A stretch of DNA of 6,227 nt, taken from assembly GCA_021828425.1 (NCBI GenBank), contig JAKARN010000092.1:1-6227 (forward strand), written 5' to 3'. How positions within the stretch are numbered: the first letter of the stretch is position 1; every line of letters starts with the position of its first letter. The notes below the pieces were generated by a model that was not told where the DNA came from, did no database searches, and saw nothing but the letters and a program-made list of their open reading frames with translations. Source of the DNA: Pseudomonadota bacterium (lineage in GTDB: Bacteria; Pseudomonadota; Gammaproteobacteria; JAKAQQ01). Below, in pieces: positions 1 to 6,227 of this stretch. The position numbers and the translations under genes were made by a program.

Positions 1-162
1 TCGGATGGGCGGTTTTTTGCCAGACTCGGAGCCGAGGTAGTTGAACTCGGCTTGCCCAGTGAACGGTTACATGCTCCGGATGAACGGGTGGCCGTACAAG
101 ATCTGGTTACTCTCGAGTCCACTTATTTCGAGGTCGTGAAGTCCTACTTGGGAACCGCCTGA
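1..162 (+). CDS. dapE: Succinyl-diaminopimelate desuccinylase, C-terminal fragment (5' end outside window)
   Basis: These are the last 53 codons of an M20-family metallopeptidase, open from base 1 in frame 1 and ending at TGA 160-162. DapE hydrolyses N-succinyl-LL-diaminopimelate to LL-diaminopimelate and succinate in the cytoplasm, in the lysine and peptidoglycan precursor pathway. The fragment opens with SDGRF and continues ARLGAEVVELG, which matches the C-terminal region of E. coli-type DapE (SDGRF-ARMGAQVVELG) almost position for position. The His at fragment residue 24, in LHAPDE, occupies the place of the conserved metal-binding His in the family's IHK-NE segment. It is the only gene on the plus strand and converges on dsbB with only 12 bases between the stop codons. 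The catalytic N-terminal part is not visible, so integrity of the whole gene cannot be judged. Another M20 peptidase is possible but the SDGRF block argues for DapE. Confidence 0.9.
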   Translation, partial: SDGRFFARLGAEVVELGLPSERLHAPDERVAVQDLVTLESTYFEVVKSYLGTA

Positions 163-174
163 CCGCCAACCCCA

Positions 175-723
175 CTAGCGGACGGGCTTCCTCCGTCCCG
201 CCTTAAAGTTGATCCAAGCACCGAAGCTGGCCAAAAGCACAAAGCAGGCCAGAACCCAGACTGGCATGCTGAGTCCCAGGAAGGTCCAATCAATCCGCGC
301 ACAATCGCCACTCCCTGCCAGAGTCAGGCGGAGAGCTTCTATGGGCGGCAGGTGGCGAAACATCCATCCAAGGCCTGCCGCACAAGAGGTCGGCGTCCGG
401 GTCGTGAAATATTGCAACCAAATCTGCCGCATGGAGACTGCAGCACCGAAGAAGCCGCAAATGAGCAGCAACAACCCATATACCCGACTCCCCAAACGAC
501 CACTCCGGTGCAGGGTCGCCATGAGAAAGACAAATCCCAAAAGCCCCATGAAAATCCGTTGGAAGATACAGAGCGGACAAGGCTGCAAGCCCATCACGTA
601 CTGGAGGTAGTACGCGTATCCCAGAAGAAACACGCAGGCCAGAAACCCCAGGAGATTAAACAGTCGTCTCACTTTATTCGGCCCTCGGTCCAACCAGTTC
701 TTCAATCTCGTCAAGACGAACAT
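175..723 (-). CDS. dsbB: Disulfide bond formation protein B (quinone-linked DsbA oxidase)
   Basis: DsbB is an inner-membrane protein that reoxidises periplasmic DsbA and passes the electrons to quinone. With the start at 723 it has 182 residues, close to the 176 of E. coli. Four hydrophobic segments are visible. The first periplasmic loop carries the redox pair CPLC (C49, C52). The second pair is C114 (TSCAAG) and C141 (GDCAR). The following stretch, WTFLGLSMPVW, matches the family's W-FLGLEMPQW. The start is uncertain. ATG at 723 has an AAGGA 8 bases upstream but overlaps phoU by 50 bases. A GTG at 670-672, just after the phoU stop, would give about 165 residues with a short N-terminus typical of many DsbBs. 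Two further in-frame ATGs upstream (732 and 759) lack a suitably spaced ribosome site. It is the last gene of the minus-strand run, with no DsbA gene in view. Confidence 0.95.
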   Translation of the reverse strand: MFVLTRLKNWLDRGPNKVRRLFNLLGFLACVFLLGYAYYLQYVMGLQPCPLCIFQRIFMGLLGFVFLMATLHRSGRLGSRVYGLLLLICGFFGAAVSMRQIWLQYFTTRTPTSCAAGLGWMFRHLPPIEALRLTLAGSGDCARIDWTFLGLSMPVWVLACFVLLASFGAWINFKAGRRKPVR

Positions 724-1396
724 GCCGCACATCCTTCCCCGAAGCCAAATAGACGACATACTCGCACAGGTTTTTGGCGTGATCGCCGATCCGCTCCATG
801 GAACGACCGATGGTAATACAACTAAAAACCCTCCGGATAGTCCGCGGATCTTCCATCATGTAGGTAATCGATTGCCGGATAAAGCTTTCATAATCCCGGT
901 CTATCCGGTAATCCTCCCGGAGAATGCTGACGGCCGCATTCGCATCCACGCGGGCAAAGGCATCAAGCGCACCATGAAGAAGCCCGCGTGCGGCCTCCCC
1001 GAGGCGAATCAACTCGTGGAAGTTGGCAGGATCACGGTCCTGGACCGGCATCAGCAGGAAAAGCCTGCCGATTTTCGAAGCTTCATCTCCTGCACGTTCC
1101 AGGTCGGTGCTGGCCTTGAGGATGGCCAAAATCAGTCGCAAATCACTGGCCGCAGGCTGGCGCCTGGCCAGAATATGGCTCCCCGCTTCATCCAACGCAA
1201 TCTCAATCCGGTTAATTTCCCGATCTGAAGCATCCAGCTTCTCAGCGAGCGCACTGTCACCATCGCGCAGGGCCTTGAGTGCATCACTGATTTGCTGCTC
1301 CACCATGCCACCCATCGCCAGTAACTGGCGACGCAAGCCCCCCAGCTCGGAATTAAATTCCTGAGAAATATGGTCCCCGGTCAGGAAGCGTTCCAT
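674..1396 (-). CDS. phoU: Phosphate signalling regulator PhoU
   Basis: PhoU is a cytoplasmic protein that links the PstSCAB transporter to PhoR and keeps the Pho response off when phosphate is plentiful. This one has 240 residues, the usual family length (E. coli 241), and is predicted all-helical. It shows the two-repeat architecture, with a metal-binding-type E/D-xxx-D motif in each half: LERAGDEASKIGRL from residue 99 and MERIGDHAKN at 200-209. The start is set at ATG 1394-1396 because GAGGAG lies 6 bases upstream. The adjacent in-frame TTG at 1397-1399 is too close to that site. It follows olsA after 10 bases and its 3' end overlaps dsbB. Unlike in many bacteria it is not beside pst genes, at least within the window. 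Its position after phoB-phoR-olsB-olsA suggests co-transcription with the two-component system it modulates. Confidence 0.96.
   Translation of the reverse strand: MERFLTGDHISQEFNSELGGLRRQLLAMGGMVEQQISDALKALRDGDSALAEKLDASDREINRIEIALDEAGSHILARRQPAASDLRLILAILKASTDLERAGDEASKIGRLFLLMPVQDRDPANFHELIRLGEAARGLLHGALDAFARVDANAAVSILREDYRIDRDYESFIRQSITYMMEDPRTIRRVFSCITIGRSMERIGDHAKNLCEYVVYLASGKDVRHVRLDEIEELVGPRAE
732..736 (-). promoter_or_regulatory. Ribosome binding site for dsbB, inside phoU
   Basis: AAGGA (part of the purine stretch GGGGAAGGA, 732-740) lies 8 bases before the ATG at 723. It supports that start over the in-frame ATGs at 732, which it abuts, and 759. It lies inside the phoU coding region, so translation of dsbB would begin before phoU ends. 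The competing GTG at 670-672 has a GAGGG about 9 bases upstream, so the evidence is not conclusive. Confidence 0.5.
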
Positions 1397-1402
1397 CAAC
1401 TA

Positions 1403-1408
1403 CTCCTC
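1403..1408 (-). promoter_or_regulatory. Strong Shine-Dalgarno site of phoU overlapping the olsA stop
   Basis: GAGGAG at 1403-1408 overlaps the olsA TGA (1407-1409) and stands 6 bases before the phoU ATG at 1396. It decides the phoU start and is the strongest ribosome site in the operon. The overlap implies that ribosomes finishing olsA sit on the phoU entry site, consistent with translational coupling. Confidence 0.8.
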
Positions 1409-2279
1409 AACCCCTGGCATGCCAGCCATCCGTGACCTGCGAAGTGAGCTCAGTGCGAGGACCCTCGGTGACCGTCTCCTCGGAGCCGGTCAGCCATTGT
1501 CCGATCTGGCTTTCACAGGACAAGGCCATCTGACGAGGCGTTGGACTAGGGGAAGAAATCTGCATCGGGTCGAAAAAGCAAGCCTCAGCCTGGATCATGG
1601 GCAGGGCCAGGATACTCCAGAGGTTTTCAAGGATCGTGGCTTCACCCAGAAACGGGACTCGCTCACGCACCTCAGGAGATCCCCGGTAACGTAAGCCTAC
1701 AGGTTGAACGCTTGCCCCCGGAGAAGATGCGGCAGCAAACAACCGGGACCGGAAGCGTCTTAGAATCTGCCCATTACCCGTTGTCCCCTCCGGGAAAAAG
1801 ATCAGACGTTCCCCTTGAGAGAGCTCACTTTTCATGAGCTCCACCACAGCCTCAAAACTGGCTCCATCACCGCGGCGGATGAACAGGGTCCCGCCCTCAC
1901 GGGCAAACCAACCGAGCAGGGGCCAATGCCCAACCTCAGCCTTGGAGACAAAACGTGCCCGGCAGGCCGACGCCAGCACGAGAATGTCGAGCCAGCTGAC
2001 GTGATTACAGGCAAAAAGCACAGCTCCCGGACAGGGCTTTCCCGCCACCTGAACCCGAACGCCGATCAAAAAAAGGGCGCCCGAAAGCCAGAAATCGGAA
2101 CACCGGACCCGCATCCTCCGCCGGAAGCGATCCCACGGCTTTATCAGACTGACAAAACCGGCCACCAAGACCCCCACCAGGATCCATACGGCAAGTCCGG
2201 CCAGACGCAGTAAACGGACGAGGGATCGGTAGAAACCGTGAATCAGACTAGGCATGGGGTGGGTTGCGATCTGAGACAT
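1407..2279 (-). CDS. olsA: PlsC-family acyltransferase, probable lyso-ornithine lipid O-acyltransferase OlsA
   Basis: This is a membrane-associated 1-acyl-glycerol-3-phosphate acyltransferase fold protein of 290 residues. A hydrophobic N-terminal segment (about residues 25-44) precedes the PlsC domain. Motif I is NHVSWLD, with catalytic-type H93 and D98 in the H-x4-D arrangement. Next come FVSKAEVGHWPLLGW (110-124) and GTLFIRRG (130-137), then motif III FPEGTT (162-167). Family knowledge alone would allow a phosphatidic acid-forming PlsC. Its position directly after an OlsB-like gene argues for OlsA, which adds the second, ester-linked acyl chain to lyso-ornithine lipid; some OlsA proteins also do the PlsC reaction. 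The start at ATG 2277-2279 (GGA 6 bases upstream) overlaps olsB by 32 bases. ATG 2253-2255 would give an 8-base ATGCCTAG overlap and 282 residues and is a fair alternative. The C-terminal 40 residues are polar and poorly conserved in appearance. Confidence 0.85.
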   Translation of the reverse strand: MSQIATHPMPSLIHGFYRSLVRLLRLAGLAVWILVGVLVAGFVSLIKPWDRFRRRMRVRCSDFWLSGALFLIGVRVQVAGKPCPGAVLFACNHVSWLDILVLASACRARFVSKAEVGHWPLLGWFAREGGTLFIRRGDGASFEAVVELMKSELSQGERLIFFPEGTTGNGQILRRFRSRLFAAASSPGASVQPVGLRYRGSPEVRERVPFLGEATILENLWSILALPMIQAEACFFDPMQISSPSPTPRQMALSCESQIGQWLTGSEETVTEGPRTELTSQVTDGWHARG

Positions 2280-3096
2280 CCCGCTTCCGCTCCACAAAGC
2301 GTCTCAGGTAACGAGGTCCCACATTTTCTGCCGGAAGCATCATGAGTAAATCCGCGGTATCAAATCCCGGATCCCAACAGGGCGGGCCACAGACCACCGC
2401 TCCATAACGAACATATGCCATCAGCAAAGACGGTGCCTTGGGCTCGCCGGCCGGTGCCAATCCTTCCGGCAGCGGGTGTTTGGGAACCACACGGAGGTTG
2501 CCGGGAGACGGGCAGCGCGCCATGAGGTCATGGTAGACGGCAAGGGCACCCGCGCCACGATCCTGACCCATGGGAATGCTGGCACAACCAATAATCCGCG
2601 CATAATCCCTGAACGCCGTGTACTGGGCAATCCCGGTCCACAGCAGACTGATCGTCACTGTCTTCCGATAGTCCGGGTGCACGCAGGTTCGTCCCATTTC
2701 CATGGTCTGACCCGGAGCCAGACGGATCGCCGTCAGGTCAAACTCACTTTCAGAGTAAAAGCCGCCAGCACGATCGGCATCCGCTTGATAAAGGATACGG
2801 GTACACGCCACGACGTGCCCCGTGCGGGTATCGCGAACCAGGATGTGATGGCAGAAATCATCCAGCGGATCGATATCGTAACCCGATTCGGGCGTCAGGA
2901 TCCGGGCACCTTGCTCTTCCGCAAAAACGATCCAGCGCAATCTTTGCGCCTCGCGTACCTGGTGCCTGTCTCGTGCCCGCTCGACAACCAGGGATGCCGT
3001 AGAACGGGGGGTTGAATCACCTAAAGAAGACGAGCTTTCCCGTTCCGGAGTGCCGGTTTCCTCAGAATCTGGAACGGTTGTTTGGTCAGTCATCAT
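2248..3096 (-). CDS. olsB: Probable L-ornithine N-alpha-acyltransferase OlsB (GNAT fold)
   Basis: OlsB transfers a 3-hydroxyacyl chain from acyl carrier protein to the alpha-amino group of ornithine, the first step of ornithine lipid synthesis. The 282-residue protein shows the family's blocks in order. They are LRWIVFAEEQGAR (53-65), DDFCHHILV (79-87), TRILY (99-103), GFYSESEFDL (112-121), EMGRTCVHPDYR (133-144), LLWTGIAQY (152-160), GCAS (170-173), and a C-terminal YVRYGAVVCG...WDPGFDTADL block (228-250). These are far more specific than a generic N-acetyltransferase. The first 33 residues are Ser/Thr/Glu-rich and probably disordered; the conserved domain begins near residue 36. Two ATGs stand in tandem (3094-3096 and 3091-3093) with only a GAGAG touching them, so the exact start is unsure. 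It lies 87 bases downstream of phoR and overlaps olsA. Substrate identity is inferred from family motifs plus the adjacent acyltransferase. Confidence 0.88.
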   Translation of the reverse strand: MMTDQTTVPDSEETGTPERESSSSLGDSTPRSTASLVVERARDRHQVREAQRLRWIVFAEEQGARILTPESGYDIDPLDDFCHHILVRDTRTGHVVACTRILYQADADRAGGFYSESEFDLTAIRLAPGQTMEMGRTCVHPDYRKTVTISLLWTGIAQYTAFRDYARIIGCASIPMGQDRGAGALAVYHDLMARCPSPGNLRVVPKHPLPEGLAPAGEPKAPSLLMAYVRYGAVVCGPPCWDPGFDTADLLMMLPAENVGPRYLRRFVERKRDVSDRNPPHA

Positions 3097-3124
3097 CTCT
3101 CGAGACTTTCACGAAACCGGGACC

Positions 3125-3143
3125 CCGACAGGCTCCCTGACGG
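3125..3143. repeat. Imperfect 19-base inverted repeat in the phoR-olsB gap
   Basis: On the plus strand CCGACAGG-CTC-CCTGACGG forms a stem with seven pairs, one internal A-A mismatch and a 3-base loop. No run of T follows on either strand, so it does not look like an intrinsic terminator. It sits about where the transcript from the candidate olsB promoter would begin, so it could be an operator or a 5' leader hairpin. The two arms contain GTCAG- and CTGTC-like pieces resembling Pho half-sites, but their spacing is 12 bases rather than the 11 of a Pho box. Confidence 0.4.
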
Positions 3144-3151
3144 CAGAGAGG

Positions 3152-3182
3152 ATCATAACACGCGGCGGGCGAAGTTCGGCAA
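3152..3182 (-). promoter_or_regulatory. Candidate internal promoter for olsB-olsA-phoU (extended -10)
   Basis: On the minus strand TGTTATGAT at 3152-3160 is an extended -10 element: TG, one base, then TATGAT, which is one mismatch from TATAAT. A weak -35 candidate TTGCCG (3177-3182) lies 19 bases upstream, longer than the optimal 17, but an extended -10 can work with a poor -35. Transcription would start near 3145 and give a leader of about 50 bases before olsB. This is a pattern match only. Confidence 0.4.
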
Positions 3183-3183
3183 T

Positions 3184-4557
3184 TCACGGATGTGGCCGCC
3201 GATTGTCCATGGGCAACGGGGATGGATCAGGGGTCTTGGTCAACAGGTCTTGAGCCTCCTCCGTCACGTCCCTTGCTACCCGATCCGCTGGGAATAGGCA
3301 ACTGAAGCGGCTACCTTCTCCCGGCGTGCTTTCCACCGCCAATCTGGCGCCATGGCGGTCAAGGATCTGTCGAACGATGGCAAGACCTAAGCCAAATCCG
3401 GCCGGCCCATCCTCTTTGTGCGACATGATGCGGAAAAAGCGGTCGGTAATCCGGCCCTGCAGATGCATAGGGATACCCACCCCATTGTCCTCGACGCTCA
3501 AACATCCCCCATCCCCCCCGTCGGATTTCCACGTCACCACAACATGCCCCTCTGGAGCGGAAAATTTAATTGCATTTTCAATGAGGTTCCAGAAGGCACT
3601 CAACAACTCGGTTTCAGATCCTAAAAGAACAGCCGGTTCGCTGGACACCTGGAACTCCACATTCCGGCCGGCCAAACCCAGACTTTGGACCCTTTGCCTC
3701 AAAAGAGGAATCAGCGACTGGACGCGGACCTTCTCTTCAAACCCATGCCGCTCCTCAGGGTTCAGGCGCATGAGTTCCATAAAGCCCGTCACGAGCCTTT
3801 TCATACGCTCGGTTTCCCTTTGCATGTCCAGAAGGACCTTTCTCGATTCCACATTGTTCTCTGTGTCCTCAAGCAGCGCTTCAAGATACCCGCTCAAAAC
3901 CGTGAGAGGCGTCTTGAGTTCATGAGACGCATTTGCCAAGAAATCAAATCCACGCTGTTCCTCCTGCTTCCGGACCGTGACATCCCTGACCCACATCAAA
4001 GTTTCACCATCGTGATCAGAAACCGCAATCTGAAGGACTACCTCCTCATCCATGGGCGATGGGACTTCAATCGTGCCAGGCAAATCCATCTGCGCCAGCA
4101 AAGTCAGAAAAGTGGGATAGCGGATGAAATGCCCGATGAATTGACCATAATCATGCGGGATACGCAGTCCCAGCAGGGCGGCTGCCTTTTCATTGAAGGA
4201 AACCAGGCGACGCTGCTGATCCAGCAGCAACACCCCGTCCGAACAAGGTCCAAGCGAGCGGATCAACTCCGGGTATTTCCGTTCTTCCCCATCCCGGTTG
4301 AGTCGCATCCCCCGGATCCGCCACCGAACGGCATGTGCCACTTCCCTCCAGATCCCTCCTCCCTCTGGGATTTCCCGCTGCGGATGGTTCAGCCAGACGA
4401 GCCAGCGGCCCATTTGCCAATACAAGCGAAACAGCAACCACAAACAGAGCCCGAGAGTCCAGTAGACCCAGTGTCCCCACAGGAGTGCCAAAAGGCCGGT
4501 GAACACCACTCCTGCCACGATCCACAAGAATTCGCGAATCCAGATCTTGAGCTTCAT
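3184..4557 (-). CDS. phoR: Phosphate regulon sensor histidine kinase PhoR
   Basis: PhoR is an inner-membrane kinase that phosphorylates PhoB when phosphate is limiting. The 457-residue protein has two N-terminal hydrophobic segments (about 10-27 and 30-46) with almost no periplasmic loop, as in E. coli PhoR, so it senses through partners rather than an external domain. A PAS domain spans roughly 100-195 and ends MWVRDVT. The H-box FLANASHELKTPLTVLSGYLE carries the phospho-acceptor H212. The ATP-binding domain has an N-box NLIENAIKFS (324-333), a G1 box VEDNGVGIP (355-363), an F box DRFFRI (372-377) and a G2 box GFGLGLAIV (387-395). It starts 7 bases after the phoB stop, with AGG 6 bases before the ATG. 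The last 35 or so residues form an Asp/Pro-rich tail beyond the kinase fold, making it longer than the 431-residue E. coli protein. Confidence 0.96.
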   Translation of the reverse strand: MKLKIWIREFLWIVAGVVFTGLLALLWGHWVYWTLGLCLWLLFRLYWQMGRWLVWLNHPQREIPEGGGIWREVAHAVRWRIRGMRLNRDGEERKYPELIRSLGPCSDGVLLLDQQRRLVSFNEKAAALLGLRIPHDYGQFIGHFIRYPTFLTLLAQMDLPGTIEVPSPMDEEVVLQIAVSDHDGETLMWVRDVTVRKQEEQRGFDFLANASHELKTPLTVLSGYLEALLEDTENNVESRKVLLDMQRETERMKRLVTGFMELMRLNPEERHGFEEKVRVQSLIPLLRQRVQSLGLAGRNVEFQVSSEPAVLLGSETELLSAFWNLIENAIKFSAPEGHVVVTWKSDGGDGGCLSVEDNGVGIPMHLQGRITDRFFRIMSHKEDGPAGFGLGLAIVRQILDRHGARLAVESTPGEGSRFSCLFPADRVARDVTEEAQDLLTKTPDPSPLPMDNRRPHP

Positions 4558-4564
4558 CCGACAC

Positions 4565-5278
4565 CTAGGAAACCGGACCCGGTTTTTCCGTAAAAAGATA
4601 CCCCGTTCCCCGCCGGGTTTCGATCCATGAGTCCAGACCGAACGGCTCCAACGCCTTCCTCAGACGCCCGACATAAACATCCACCGTGCGTCCATCAATG
4701 GGCTGACCCACACCCCAGAGATGATCCAAGATCCGCGACCGGCTATGGACCTGCCGGGGATGGGCCATGAAAAATTTCAGCAGCCGAAACTCGGTCGGTC
4801 CCAAGAGAACGGGGTGATTGTCATAAAGAACATCACAGGTCTGCGTATTCAGCAGAAGCTTTCCAAACTGTAGCGTGCCCTCCTTATCGTGGATGATCTG
4901 GCTGCGCCTCAGAACCGCGTGGATCCGGGCGATCAGTTCCTTGGTCGAAAACGGCTTGGTGACAAAATCGTCGGCACCGCTGTCAAATCCATGCAACTTA
5001 TCCTCCTCCTCGTTTCGAGCCGTGAGGAATATGACGGGCACCTTCCGTGTCACTGGATCCCGACGTAAAGCCCGGGCATACTCGATACCACTCACGGATG
5101 GCATCATCCAGTCCAACAGCACGAGATCCGGAACTCCAGTTGCAAGCGCAGCCTGGGCTTCCGTCACCCGGGAGGCCAGGGTCACGGAAAACCCTGCTTT
5201 CCTCAGGGCAAAGGCCAGCATCTCCCGGACCCCGGAATCGTCGTCAACCAGCAAGATTTGGACTTGCCCGCTTTCCAT
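4565..5278 (-). CDS. phoB: Phosphate regulon response regulator PhoB
   Basis: PhoB is an OmpR-family transcription factor that binds Pho boxes once phosphorylated by PhoR. The 237-residue protein (E. coli 229) has a receiver domain with an acidic cluster D12-D14, phospho-acceptor D56 in LVLLDWMMP, switch T86 in FLTAR and K108 in TKPF. A C-terminal winged helix follows from about residue 135, with the recognition region GRTVDVYVGRLRKALEP (196-212) and the terminal RRGTGYLF hairpin typical of PhoB. The ATG at 5276-5278 has an AGG 6 bases upstream. It is the first gene after a 66-base gap holding a Pho box and a -10 element, so it should be the head of the operon and autoregulated. phoR follows after 7 bases. 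The DVDVHIRRLRKAL-like helix and the phoR neighbour make PhoB far more likely than another OmpR-type regulator. Confidence 0.96.
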   Translation of the reverse strand: MESGQVQILLVDDDSGVREMLAFALRKAGFSVTLASRVTEAQAALATGVPDLVLLDWMMPSVSGIEYARALRRDPVTRKVPVIFLTARNEEEDKLHGFDSGADDFVTKPFSTKELIARIHAVLRRSQIIHDKEGTLQFGKLLLNTQTCDVLYDNHPVLLGPTEFRLLKFFMAHPRQVHSRSRILDHLWGVGQPIDGRTVDVYVGRLRKALEPFGLDSWIETRRGTGYLFTEKPGPVS

Positions 5279-5305
5279 CGAAAACCTGTGAGCACCGATT
5301 TTTCA

Positions 5306-5311
5306 ATGATA
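5306..5311 (-). promoter_or_regulatory. phoB: -10 element of the phoB promoter
   Basis: TATCAT on the minus strand differs from TATAAT at one base. It begins exactly 10 bases after the Pho box at 5322-5339, the same spacing as between the Pho box and -10 of the E. coli phoA promoter. No good -35 element is present at 17 bases, as expected for a promoter where PhoB replaces the -35 contact. Transcription would start near 5299, giving a leader of about 20 bases. Confidence 0.6.
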
Positions 5312-5321
5312 TACGAAAGAC

Positions 5322-5339
5322 GTGTCAAATCTGTGTCAG
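5322..5339 (-). promoter_or_regulatory. phoB: Pho box (PhoB operator) upstream of phoB
   Basis: On the minus strand CTGACAC-AGAT-TTGACAC is two 7-base direct repeats separated by 4 bases, an 11-base period. This is the architecture of the Pho box CTGTCAT-AWAW-CTGTCAY, with 5 of 7 matches in each half. It lies just past the tsaB stop and 43 bases before the phoB ATG. The site predicts positive autoregulation of phoB-phoR, and of downstream genes that share the transcript, under phosphate limitation. The TTGACA inside the second half could also act as a -35, but no -10 lies 17 bases from it. Confidence 0.65.
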
Positions 5340-5342
5340 ACC

Positions 5343-5359
5343 GGTCAGCCCAACTGACC
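5343..5359. repeat. Perfect inverted repeat at the tsaB 3' end
   Basis: GGTCAG-CCCAA-CTGACC on the plus strand is a perfect 6-bp inverted repeat with a 5-base spacer, straddling the tsaB stop codon (5345-5347). There is no T-run after it on the minus strand, so it is not a convincing terminator. It abuts the Pho box and shares TGAC half-sites with it, so it might be an accessory operator or only a weak mRNA hairpin. Confidence 0.35.
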
Positions 5360-5992
5360 CACATAAAGGGGCTGCACCTCCTCCGGCCGCTCCAGGCGTT
5401 CCTCTTTCCTCGCAAGCTCGGCCAGGGCCAAGGAGGGCACAACCGGCGACCCGGGTTCGTGGGCCCAGTCACGGAGATGCTTCTCGAGATTGGGTTGATT
5501 CAGCGTCCGGGGATCATCCCCCACCCCCCTCCAACGTCCGGGCGGCAACTCGATCTCACGGGGTGATGTAACCCGTATCCTGCCCTCTGGCCACTGCCCC
5601 TCCCGAACCGTGTAGGGGCACCAAAAAACCAACCCCGATTGGGCCTTACGGCAAGCCAGAATGGAAACCGGCTGACGCTCCCTTAAGGAATAGGCCAGAG
5701 CGGCCAGATGGGGGATCGAGGCCACCGGCTTCCGCCATATCCACGCCAGTGCTTGTATGGTGGCTGCCGCGACTTTGAGTCCTGTAAAACTACCCGGTCC
5801 CGAAGCCCAAGCGAGACCCTCCAAGTCGCGGGGTTGGAGGCTTGCTTCGGAAAGCAGCTGGTCGATCTCCAAAGTCGTGGTTTCAGCAGCACGGCGACTG
5901 GCCCACTGTCGCCGAGCGACTACCGATTCGCCATCGCCAACTGCGGCAACAGCCGTTTCCAGCGAACAATCCAGAAACAACCACTTAGCCAT
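5345..5992 (-). CDS. tsaB: tRNA threonylcarbamoyladenosine biosynthesis protein TsaB
   Basis: TsaB is the non-catalytic ASKHA-fold partner of TsaD in making the t6A37 modification of ANN-decoding tRNAs. The 215-residue protein (E. coli 231) begins MAKWLFLDCSLETAVAAV, matching the family's start M-ILAIDT-TEA-SVAL, and carries the hallmark ASGPGSFTGLKV at 63-74. It ends with the PLY-type motif (208-210). The ATG at 5990-5992 was chosen because it matches the family N-terminus and overlaps the helicase stop by 8 bases (ATGGCTAA). An in-frame ATG at 6016 with a better GAGGG site would add 8 residues. Two places look diverged. The HSE-like segment after the first strand lacks a His (WASRRAAETTT), and the usual IDAR-EVYW block reads CRKAQSGLVFW. 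The helicase-tsaB order is the same as yoaA-tsaB in E. coli. Confidence 0.92.
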   Translation of the reverse strand: MAKWLFLDCSLETAVAAVGDGESVVARRQWASRRAAETTTLEIDQLLSEASLQPRDLEGLAWASGPGSFTGLKVAAATIQALAWIWRKPVASIPHLAALAYSLRERQPVSILACRKAQSGLVFWCPYTVREGQWPEGRIRVTSPREIELPPGRWRGVGDDPRTLNQPNLEKHLRDWAHEPGSPVVPSLALAELARKEERLERPEEVQPLYVGQLG

Positions 5993-6227
5993 GAGATTGC
6001 AGGAAATTGACGACATCGGCAGAATCCCTCGCCATTTGCATGGGGGGGAGGCTGGCTAAAAAAAGGGGACCATAGTTTTTCCCCCGCAACCGGTGGTCAC
6101 CAATCACGACTGCCCCAAAATCATTCTCATGCCGCAAGAGACGTCCGACACCCTGTCGCAGGGTTAAAATCGCCTTGGGCAGCTGGTACTCTTGGAAAGG
6201 CTCACCCCCCTCCTCCCGAATACTCCG
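5985..6227 (-). CDS. yoaA: YoaA/DinG-type ATP-dependent DNA helicase, C-terminal fragment
   Basis: The last 80 codons of a superfamily 2 XPD-like helicase run in from the right edge and end at TAA 5985-5987. The fragment has the C-terminal signature of the DinG/YoaA group: EGGEPFQEYQLPKAILTLRQ, then helicase motif VI QGVGRLLR (25-32), VVIGDHRLRGKNYG, and FLASLPPM near the end. Motif VI contains the Arg residues that sense ATP hydrolysis. These enzymes unwind DNA 5' to 3' and often hold an Fe-S cluster, but that domain lies outside the window. YoaA is chosen over DinG because it adjoins tsaB, as in E. coli; the fragment alone cannot separate the two. The 3' end contains a T7 run (6058-6064) and a C7 run (6042-6048) in frame. 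Confidence 0.87.
   Translation of the reverse strand, partial: RSIREEGGEPFQEYQLPKAILTLRQGVGRLLRHENDFGAVVIGDHRLRGKNYGPLFLASLPPMQMARDSADVVNFLQSHG

Follow-up and report, generated by a model that had tools for sequence, protein, structure and literature searches.

A link between the genes of aminolipid synthesis and the control of the phosphate response is already known from several bacteria. In Acinetobacter baumannii, olsB is controlled by PhoR and has a Pho box, and the organism makes ornithine and lysine lipids (PMC11828411); OlsAB and PhoU of Pseudomonas BIRD-1 are PhoBR-dependent (PMC5082522); the Pho regulon of Sinorhizobium meliloti includes olsA and olsB (PMC10315480); and the two genes are as a rule direct neighbours (PMC11631085). 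Here we describe a contig of 6,227 nucleotides from a gammaproteobacterium of the GTDB lineage JAKAQQ01 (assembly GCA_021828425.1, contig JAKARN010000092.1, positions 1 to 6,227; hereafter, the window), in which an olsB-olsA-like gene pair lies between phoBR and phoU. As in A. baumannii, an OlsB/OlsA aminolipid pathway is tied to the phosphate response; however, A. baumannii carries its olsB, with a Pho box, at some distance from olsA, whereas in the window the two genes form a block with phoU and a search upstream of olsB gave no Pho box. The olsB-olsA pairs described elsewhere (PMC11631085; PMC5082522) share the adjacency of the two genes, but here the pair is preceded by phoBR and followed by phoU. 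No title on the order phoR-olsBA-phoU was found in the literature searched, nor any description of it in the available parts of PMC11631085, PMC11828411, PMC6298996, PMC7565709, PMC5082522, PMC10315480 and PMC9927469; what is new is an olsBA pair set between phoBR and phoU with no Pho box ahead of olsB.

Our preferred explanation, to which we give a probability of about 0.5, is that olsB-olsA-phoU forms a unit behind phoBR with its own basal promoter, which lacks a Pho box, and that the lipids are made mainly at a basal level. The OlsB-like enzyme would N-acylate an amino acid, most likely ornithine, and the OlsA-like enzyme would then O-acylate the product, the two-step pathway being placed, in one lineage, in a unit directly behind phoBR. 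Transcription would start at a conserved extended -10 promoter of the unit itself, and for this reason lipid synthesis would be mainly basal and co-produced with PhoU, not a direct target of PhoB as in many relatives.

Pho boxes were scored against the consensus CTGTCAT-N4-CTGTCAY (maximum score, 24). With two scorings, the DNA upstream of olsB gave no Pho box in the window or in the six olsB-bearing genomes of the same order (0/7; these seven sources are hereafter called the clade), which does not support olsB as a direct PhoB target; the best score was 17 (G002; fraction of shuffled sequences, 0.18), and the others were 14 to 16. For comparison, 369 genomes of the class were sampled, of which at least 61 had OlsB at E 1e-40 or better (a lower bound, since at most 7 candidates were scored per genome); without the four that are clade members, 57 others remain. 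Before olsB, 27 of the 57 had a score of 19 or more, 30 had a shuffle fraction no greater than 0.025 (expected, 1.4), and 29 were positive with a matrix made from ten clade sites, whereas with this matrix nothing at that level was found before the clade olsB on either strand (lowest fraction, 0.087, in G002). The contrast between 0/7 in the clade and 27/57 in the others gave P = 0.018.

As positive controls, Pho boxes were detected elsewhere in the clade. The pstS-like gene (the open reading frame (ORF) upstream of pstC, named by its position) has an upstream box with a score of 19 to 22 in all five clade genomes with upstream DNA, the contig of G003 being uninformative; in G001 and G008 a later start of the gene is meant, because the longest ORF overlaps the box. 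Upstream of phoB, a Pho-box-like repeat was found in five of the seven: that of the window (5322-5339, minus strand; CTGACAC AGAT TTGACAC, a 7-4-7 repeat) is identical in G001, and other versions are present in G002, G006 and G008. The repeat of the window scores 18/24 towards phoB and 20/24 on the other strand (0.26 sites of 18 or more are expected per kb); it matches the consensus more closely when read away from phoB.

Several of these data weigh against our explanation. The value of P = 0.018 rests on seven related genomes, which may count as one event; 30 of the 57 other genomes also score below 19 before olsB, and the absent box of the clade is thus not unique; the shuffles used for the Pho-box fractions preserved single-base composition only; and the DNA upstream of phoB, too, gave no Pho box in G003 and G007. 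The interpretation offered by a sequence-only reading (an earlier note on the same DNA) finds partial support: direct control of the lipid genes by PhoB is not supported here, although boxes occur at pstS and phoB.

The gap between phoR and olsB contains, in the window and in all six genomes, an extended -10 element of the form TG.TATGAT (TGYTATGAT; TGTTATGAT at 3152-3160 of the window, minus strand). A scan of ten sources gave no occurrence of it outside this gap, and the six pst loci contain no instance of the wider pattern TG.TAT[AG]AT. Directly before this element, a hairpin with a T run, resembling a terminator, is present in G002, G003 and G007 (3/7). Because the extended -10 is conserved in the gap and is preceded by a hairpin in three of the seven, olsB-olsA-phoU is most likely a separate transcription unit with a basal promoter, as far as this can be read from sequence. 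Against this stand the two-hexamer sigma-70 scan, in which no promoter was found in the gap of any of the seven (the extended -10 is without a clear -35), so that the case for the promoter rests on the conserved extended -10; the weak hairpin of G007 (6 pairs); the number of terminator-like sites over the whole G002 locus, 11 versus 11.3 in shuffles; and the fact that no terminator-like site was found on the gene strand between phoR and olsB in four sources (the window, G001, G006 and G008). Since their gap has no such site, PhoB-driven read-through may occur in these four; transcripts begun at the Pho-box promoter of phoB could then run on into olsB, in the window for example, and make the basal synthesis partly responsive to phosphate.

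If read-through were the rule, the locus would be, in line with the sequence-only reading, a PhoB-controlled phosphate-sparing module: phoBR and olsBA-phoU would be transcribed together from the promoter with the Pho-box-like repeat ahead of phoB, and aminolipids would rise as phosphate falls. The short gap of 87 bases, free of terminator-like sites in the window, G001, G006 and G008, and the repeat before phoB in five of the seven are in accordance with it, as are the PhoR-controlled olsB of Acinetobacter baumannii (PMC11828411), the PhoBR-dependent OlsAB and PhoU of Pseudomonas BIRD-1 (PMC5082522) and the olsA and olsB of the S. meliloti Pho regulon (PMC10315480). We regard a single transcript as rather unlikely, given the extended -10 before olsB in all seven, the hairpin before it in three, and the lack of a detectable Pho box before olsB.

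To return to a separate unit with a basal promoter, the Pho box that many relatives carry before olsB was not found here, which suggests that the control of olsB-olsA was rewired in this lineage. Tentatively, with phoU joined and the Pho box lost, a lipid pathway induced by starvation might have become a standing part of the membrane, the lipids and the brake of the phosphate response being made from one promoter. Relatives with a Pho box before olsB and a lineage in which olsB apparently shares a promoter with phoU form a natural comparison, by which the permanence of the lipid replacement becomes testable. The locus is also a warning that regulation should not be inferred from gene order alone.

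The minus-strand order tsaB-phoB-phoR-olsB-plsC-phoU-dsbB of the window was obtained from the ORF list and from Pfam and NCBIfam searches. Coordinates and families confirm what the sequence-only reading had given for the central five genes, namely phoB (response regulator, 4565-5278), phoR (sensor kinase, 3184-4557), an olsB-like N-acyltransferase gene (2248-3096), a gene for an acyltransferase of PlsC fold (1407-2297) and phoU (674-1399) on one strand with gaps of 87 bases or less (phoB-phoR, 7 bases; phoR-olsB, 87; plsC-phoU, 7). It had also counted two overlaps, of which that between olsB and plsC stands (50 bases if the first (TTG) plsC start is used); the other (86 bases, 674-759, with the listed dsbB start) lies between phoU and dsbB, the latter being outside the five genes named. 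The product of phoB matched PF00072 and PF00486, and its best NCBIfam match was TIGR02154 (PhoB), at 282 bits below the cut-off of 296.2; that of phoR matched PF11808 (the PhoR domain, 30.1 bits, above the cut-off of 27.1), PF00512 and PF02518, with TIGR02966 (PhoR) as best NCBIfam match, at 279 bits below the cut-off of 334.2. The names phoB and phoR were thus assigned by best match and neighbours. PhoU matched PF01895 in two stretches and TIGR02135 at 208.3 bits (cut-off, 130.25).

When the synteny was searched for, the phoR-olsB-olsA-phoU block proved common to six of the nine genomes examined of the order. All six have olsB, adjoined in each case by plsC and phoU, and the nearest locus found is L003 in G001, whose OlsB is 91% identical to that of the window. 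In five of them phoR precedes olsB on the same contig; in G003 a contig end splits the two, and both contig ends share the sequence around the promoter element. A chance arrangement is ruled out by this conservation. Each of the six has one match to phoU, which is the copy beside olsB-plsC. In the OlsB tree, in which many deeper forks were unresolved, the seven clade sequences form one branch (support, 100/99), apart from the sequences of G235 and G119 described below.

In the remaining three genomes of the order (G004, G005 and G009), olsB, phoU and dsbB were not found, nor was phoB at E 1e-40; for tsaB, G004 and G005 gave no match and G009 only weak ones. All three have pstB. A gap in assembly or binning is the simplest and a likely account of the missing block; a real loss is also possible, because two of the three genomes are listed next to G001.

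The sequence-only reading had further supposed a self-contained module of sensor, regulator, modulator and output. This is too strong, because pstB and pstC lie on contigs apart from the olsB block and from each other in the six clade genomes, which rules out a self-contained module that includes the transporter.

The OlsB-like protein contains a GNAT domain (PF13444, 104.4 bits; cut-off, 22.4). The two OlsB equivalogs NF052555 and NF052554 head its NCBIfam list at 126.2 (cut-off, 320) and 115.6 bits (cut-off, 350), and the next match, OlsF, reached 46.1 bits; thus, the OlsB models fit 2248-3096 best, below their cut-offs, and no assignment outside OlsB was obtained. The PlsC-fold protein matched PF01553 (75.8 bits; cut-off, 23), and two OlsA equivalogs head its NCBIfam list (123.8 and 111.2 bits; cut-off, 300), the AGP_acyltrn model trailing them (79.6; cut-off, 102.95); the HX4D and FPEG motifs are visible in its translation. 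The proposal that the pair is OlsB- and OlsA-like agrees with these scores. Neither enzyme reached the equivalog cut-offs, which counts against our explanation, and for this reason the two are filed as OlsB-like and OlsA-like only. Synthesis of an aminolipid by the pair is likely as judged from these matches. A housekeeping PlsC is less likely, since the protein fits the OlsA models best and five of the six clade genomes encode another PF01553 protein that could fill the housekeeping role (in G008 only one such protein was found in all). Named relatives of both enzymes are mostly gammaproteobacterial.

A structure model of the OlsB-like protein (GNAT; mean pLDDT, 84) was used for a structure search, in which LasI, TofI and BjaI came first and FeeM (2g0b) appeared from the thirteenth rank on; E values were 1e-6 to 5e-5, and TM scores normalized by query length were 0.44-0.51. 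LasI, TofI and BjaI are acyl-homoserine-lactone (AHL) synthases of the LuxI type, and FeeM is an N-acyl amino acid synthase. The predicted fold thus appears to be of the LuxI/FeeM kind of GNAT, similar but not close in view of the TM values. By sequence, a profile made from 23 relatives also picks up an AHL synthase (E 0.00017).

Ornithine is most likely the head group as predicted from the family matches. The GNAT might use another amino acid, lysine or glutamine, and give an aminolipid other than ornithine lipid, which would be compatible with any of the other readings. An OlsB relative makes glutamine lipid using the same OlsA (PMC6298996), another OlsB relative makes lysine lipid (PMC11828411), and the scores of 126.2 and 115.6 bits are well below the OlsB cut-offs of 320 and 350. 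The two best NCBIfam matches are OlsB, however, and an adjoining olsA-like gene marks olsB, not glsB, in the Rhodobacteraceae (PMC6298996), and we therefore consider another amino acid improbable as judged from the NCBIfam models and the neighbouring gene.

Across the class, phoU was found in all 63 genomes searched (the 61 with olsB, G002 and G003). Among the 57 genomes outside the clade, four have phoU no more than 7 kb from olsB (expected, 0.35; P 0.0005) and seven have it no more than 16 kb away (expected, 0.75; P 1.4e-5); in most of the remaining genomes phoU and olsB are on different contigs. Of 64 rows, the seven clade rows included, 45 have a plsC-like gene at most 1.5 kb behind olsB. 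In G235 (L050, 2267-10997), genes for porin O/P, olsB, plsC, two permease-like proteins, an ABC ATPase and phoU run in one direction, the first permease-like gene being just below the Pfam cut-off (25.0 of 26.4); G119 (L051, 1976-10755) has a similar layout by length and match, Pfam being tested on the porin only. In both, olsBA is apparently within a pst operon. These loci resemble that of the window in that olsBA lies upstream of phoU in a phosphate locus; they differ in that olsBA is joined there to pst-like genes with Pho-box-like repeats and here to phoBR. In G140, a distant OlsB (31% identity) has a box score of 23, and its gene is tail to tail with phoU. The association of olsB with phosphate genes seems, from the sequences compared, to have had more than one origin or many losses, because the OlsB branch of the clade is separate from G235 and G119. 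The link between olsB and phosphate drawn by the sequence-only reading is thus supported in general by the Pho boxes in 27 of the 57 genomes, the proximity of phoU above chance and the literature cases elsewhere.

These frequencies also bear on the view that the neighbourhood has no regulatory meaning, the aminolipids serving, for example, acid or metal tolerance and the place beside phoBR being a neutral accident. In its favour, the metagenome of a mine drainage contains a PlsC relative with 57% identity, and acidic mine pit lakes have yielded ornithine lipids (PMC7565709), neither of which shows a role by itself. The seven cases of phoU within 16 kb of olsB outside the clade, where 0.75 would be expected, and olsB directly before pst-like genes in G235 make such an accident unlikely.

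Note that this lineage does not keep its pst genes together: pstC occupies one locus, where a weaker permease match adjoins it, and pstB another (in G001, the two loci are L060 on contig C6 and L082 on contig C65), and phoU sits with olsBA. Genes beside pstB are presumably those for PilY1 and minor pilins. As for the outer neighbours in the window, tsaB (5345-6016, minus strand; TIGR03725, 113.1 bits; cut-off, 69.3) is retained upstream at the same position in relatives, G006 and G008 giving a weak partial match, and dsbB (175-759, minus strand; PF02600) is retained downstream at the same place. We know of no functional link of dsbB to its neighbouring genes. The dsbB stretch matched in G002, G003 and G007 contains two TGA stops, and the true start of dsbB is, as judged from these stops, probably further in than the listed start.

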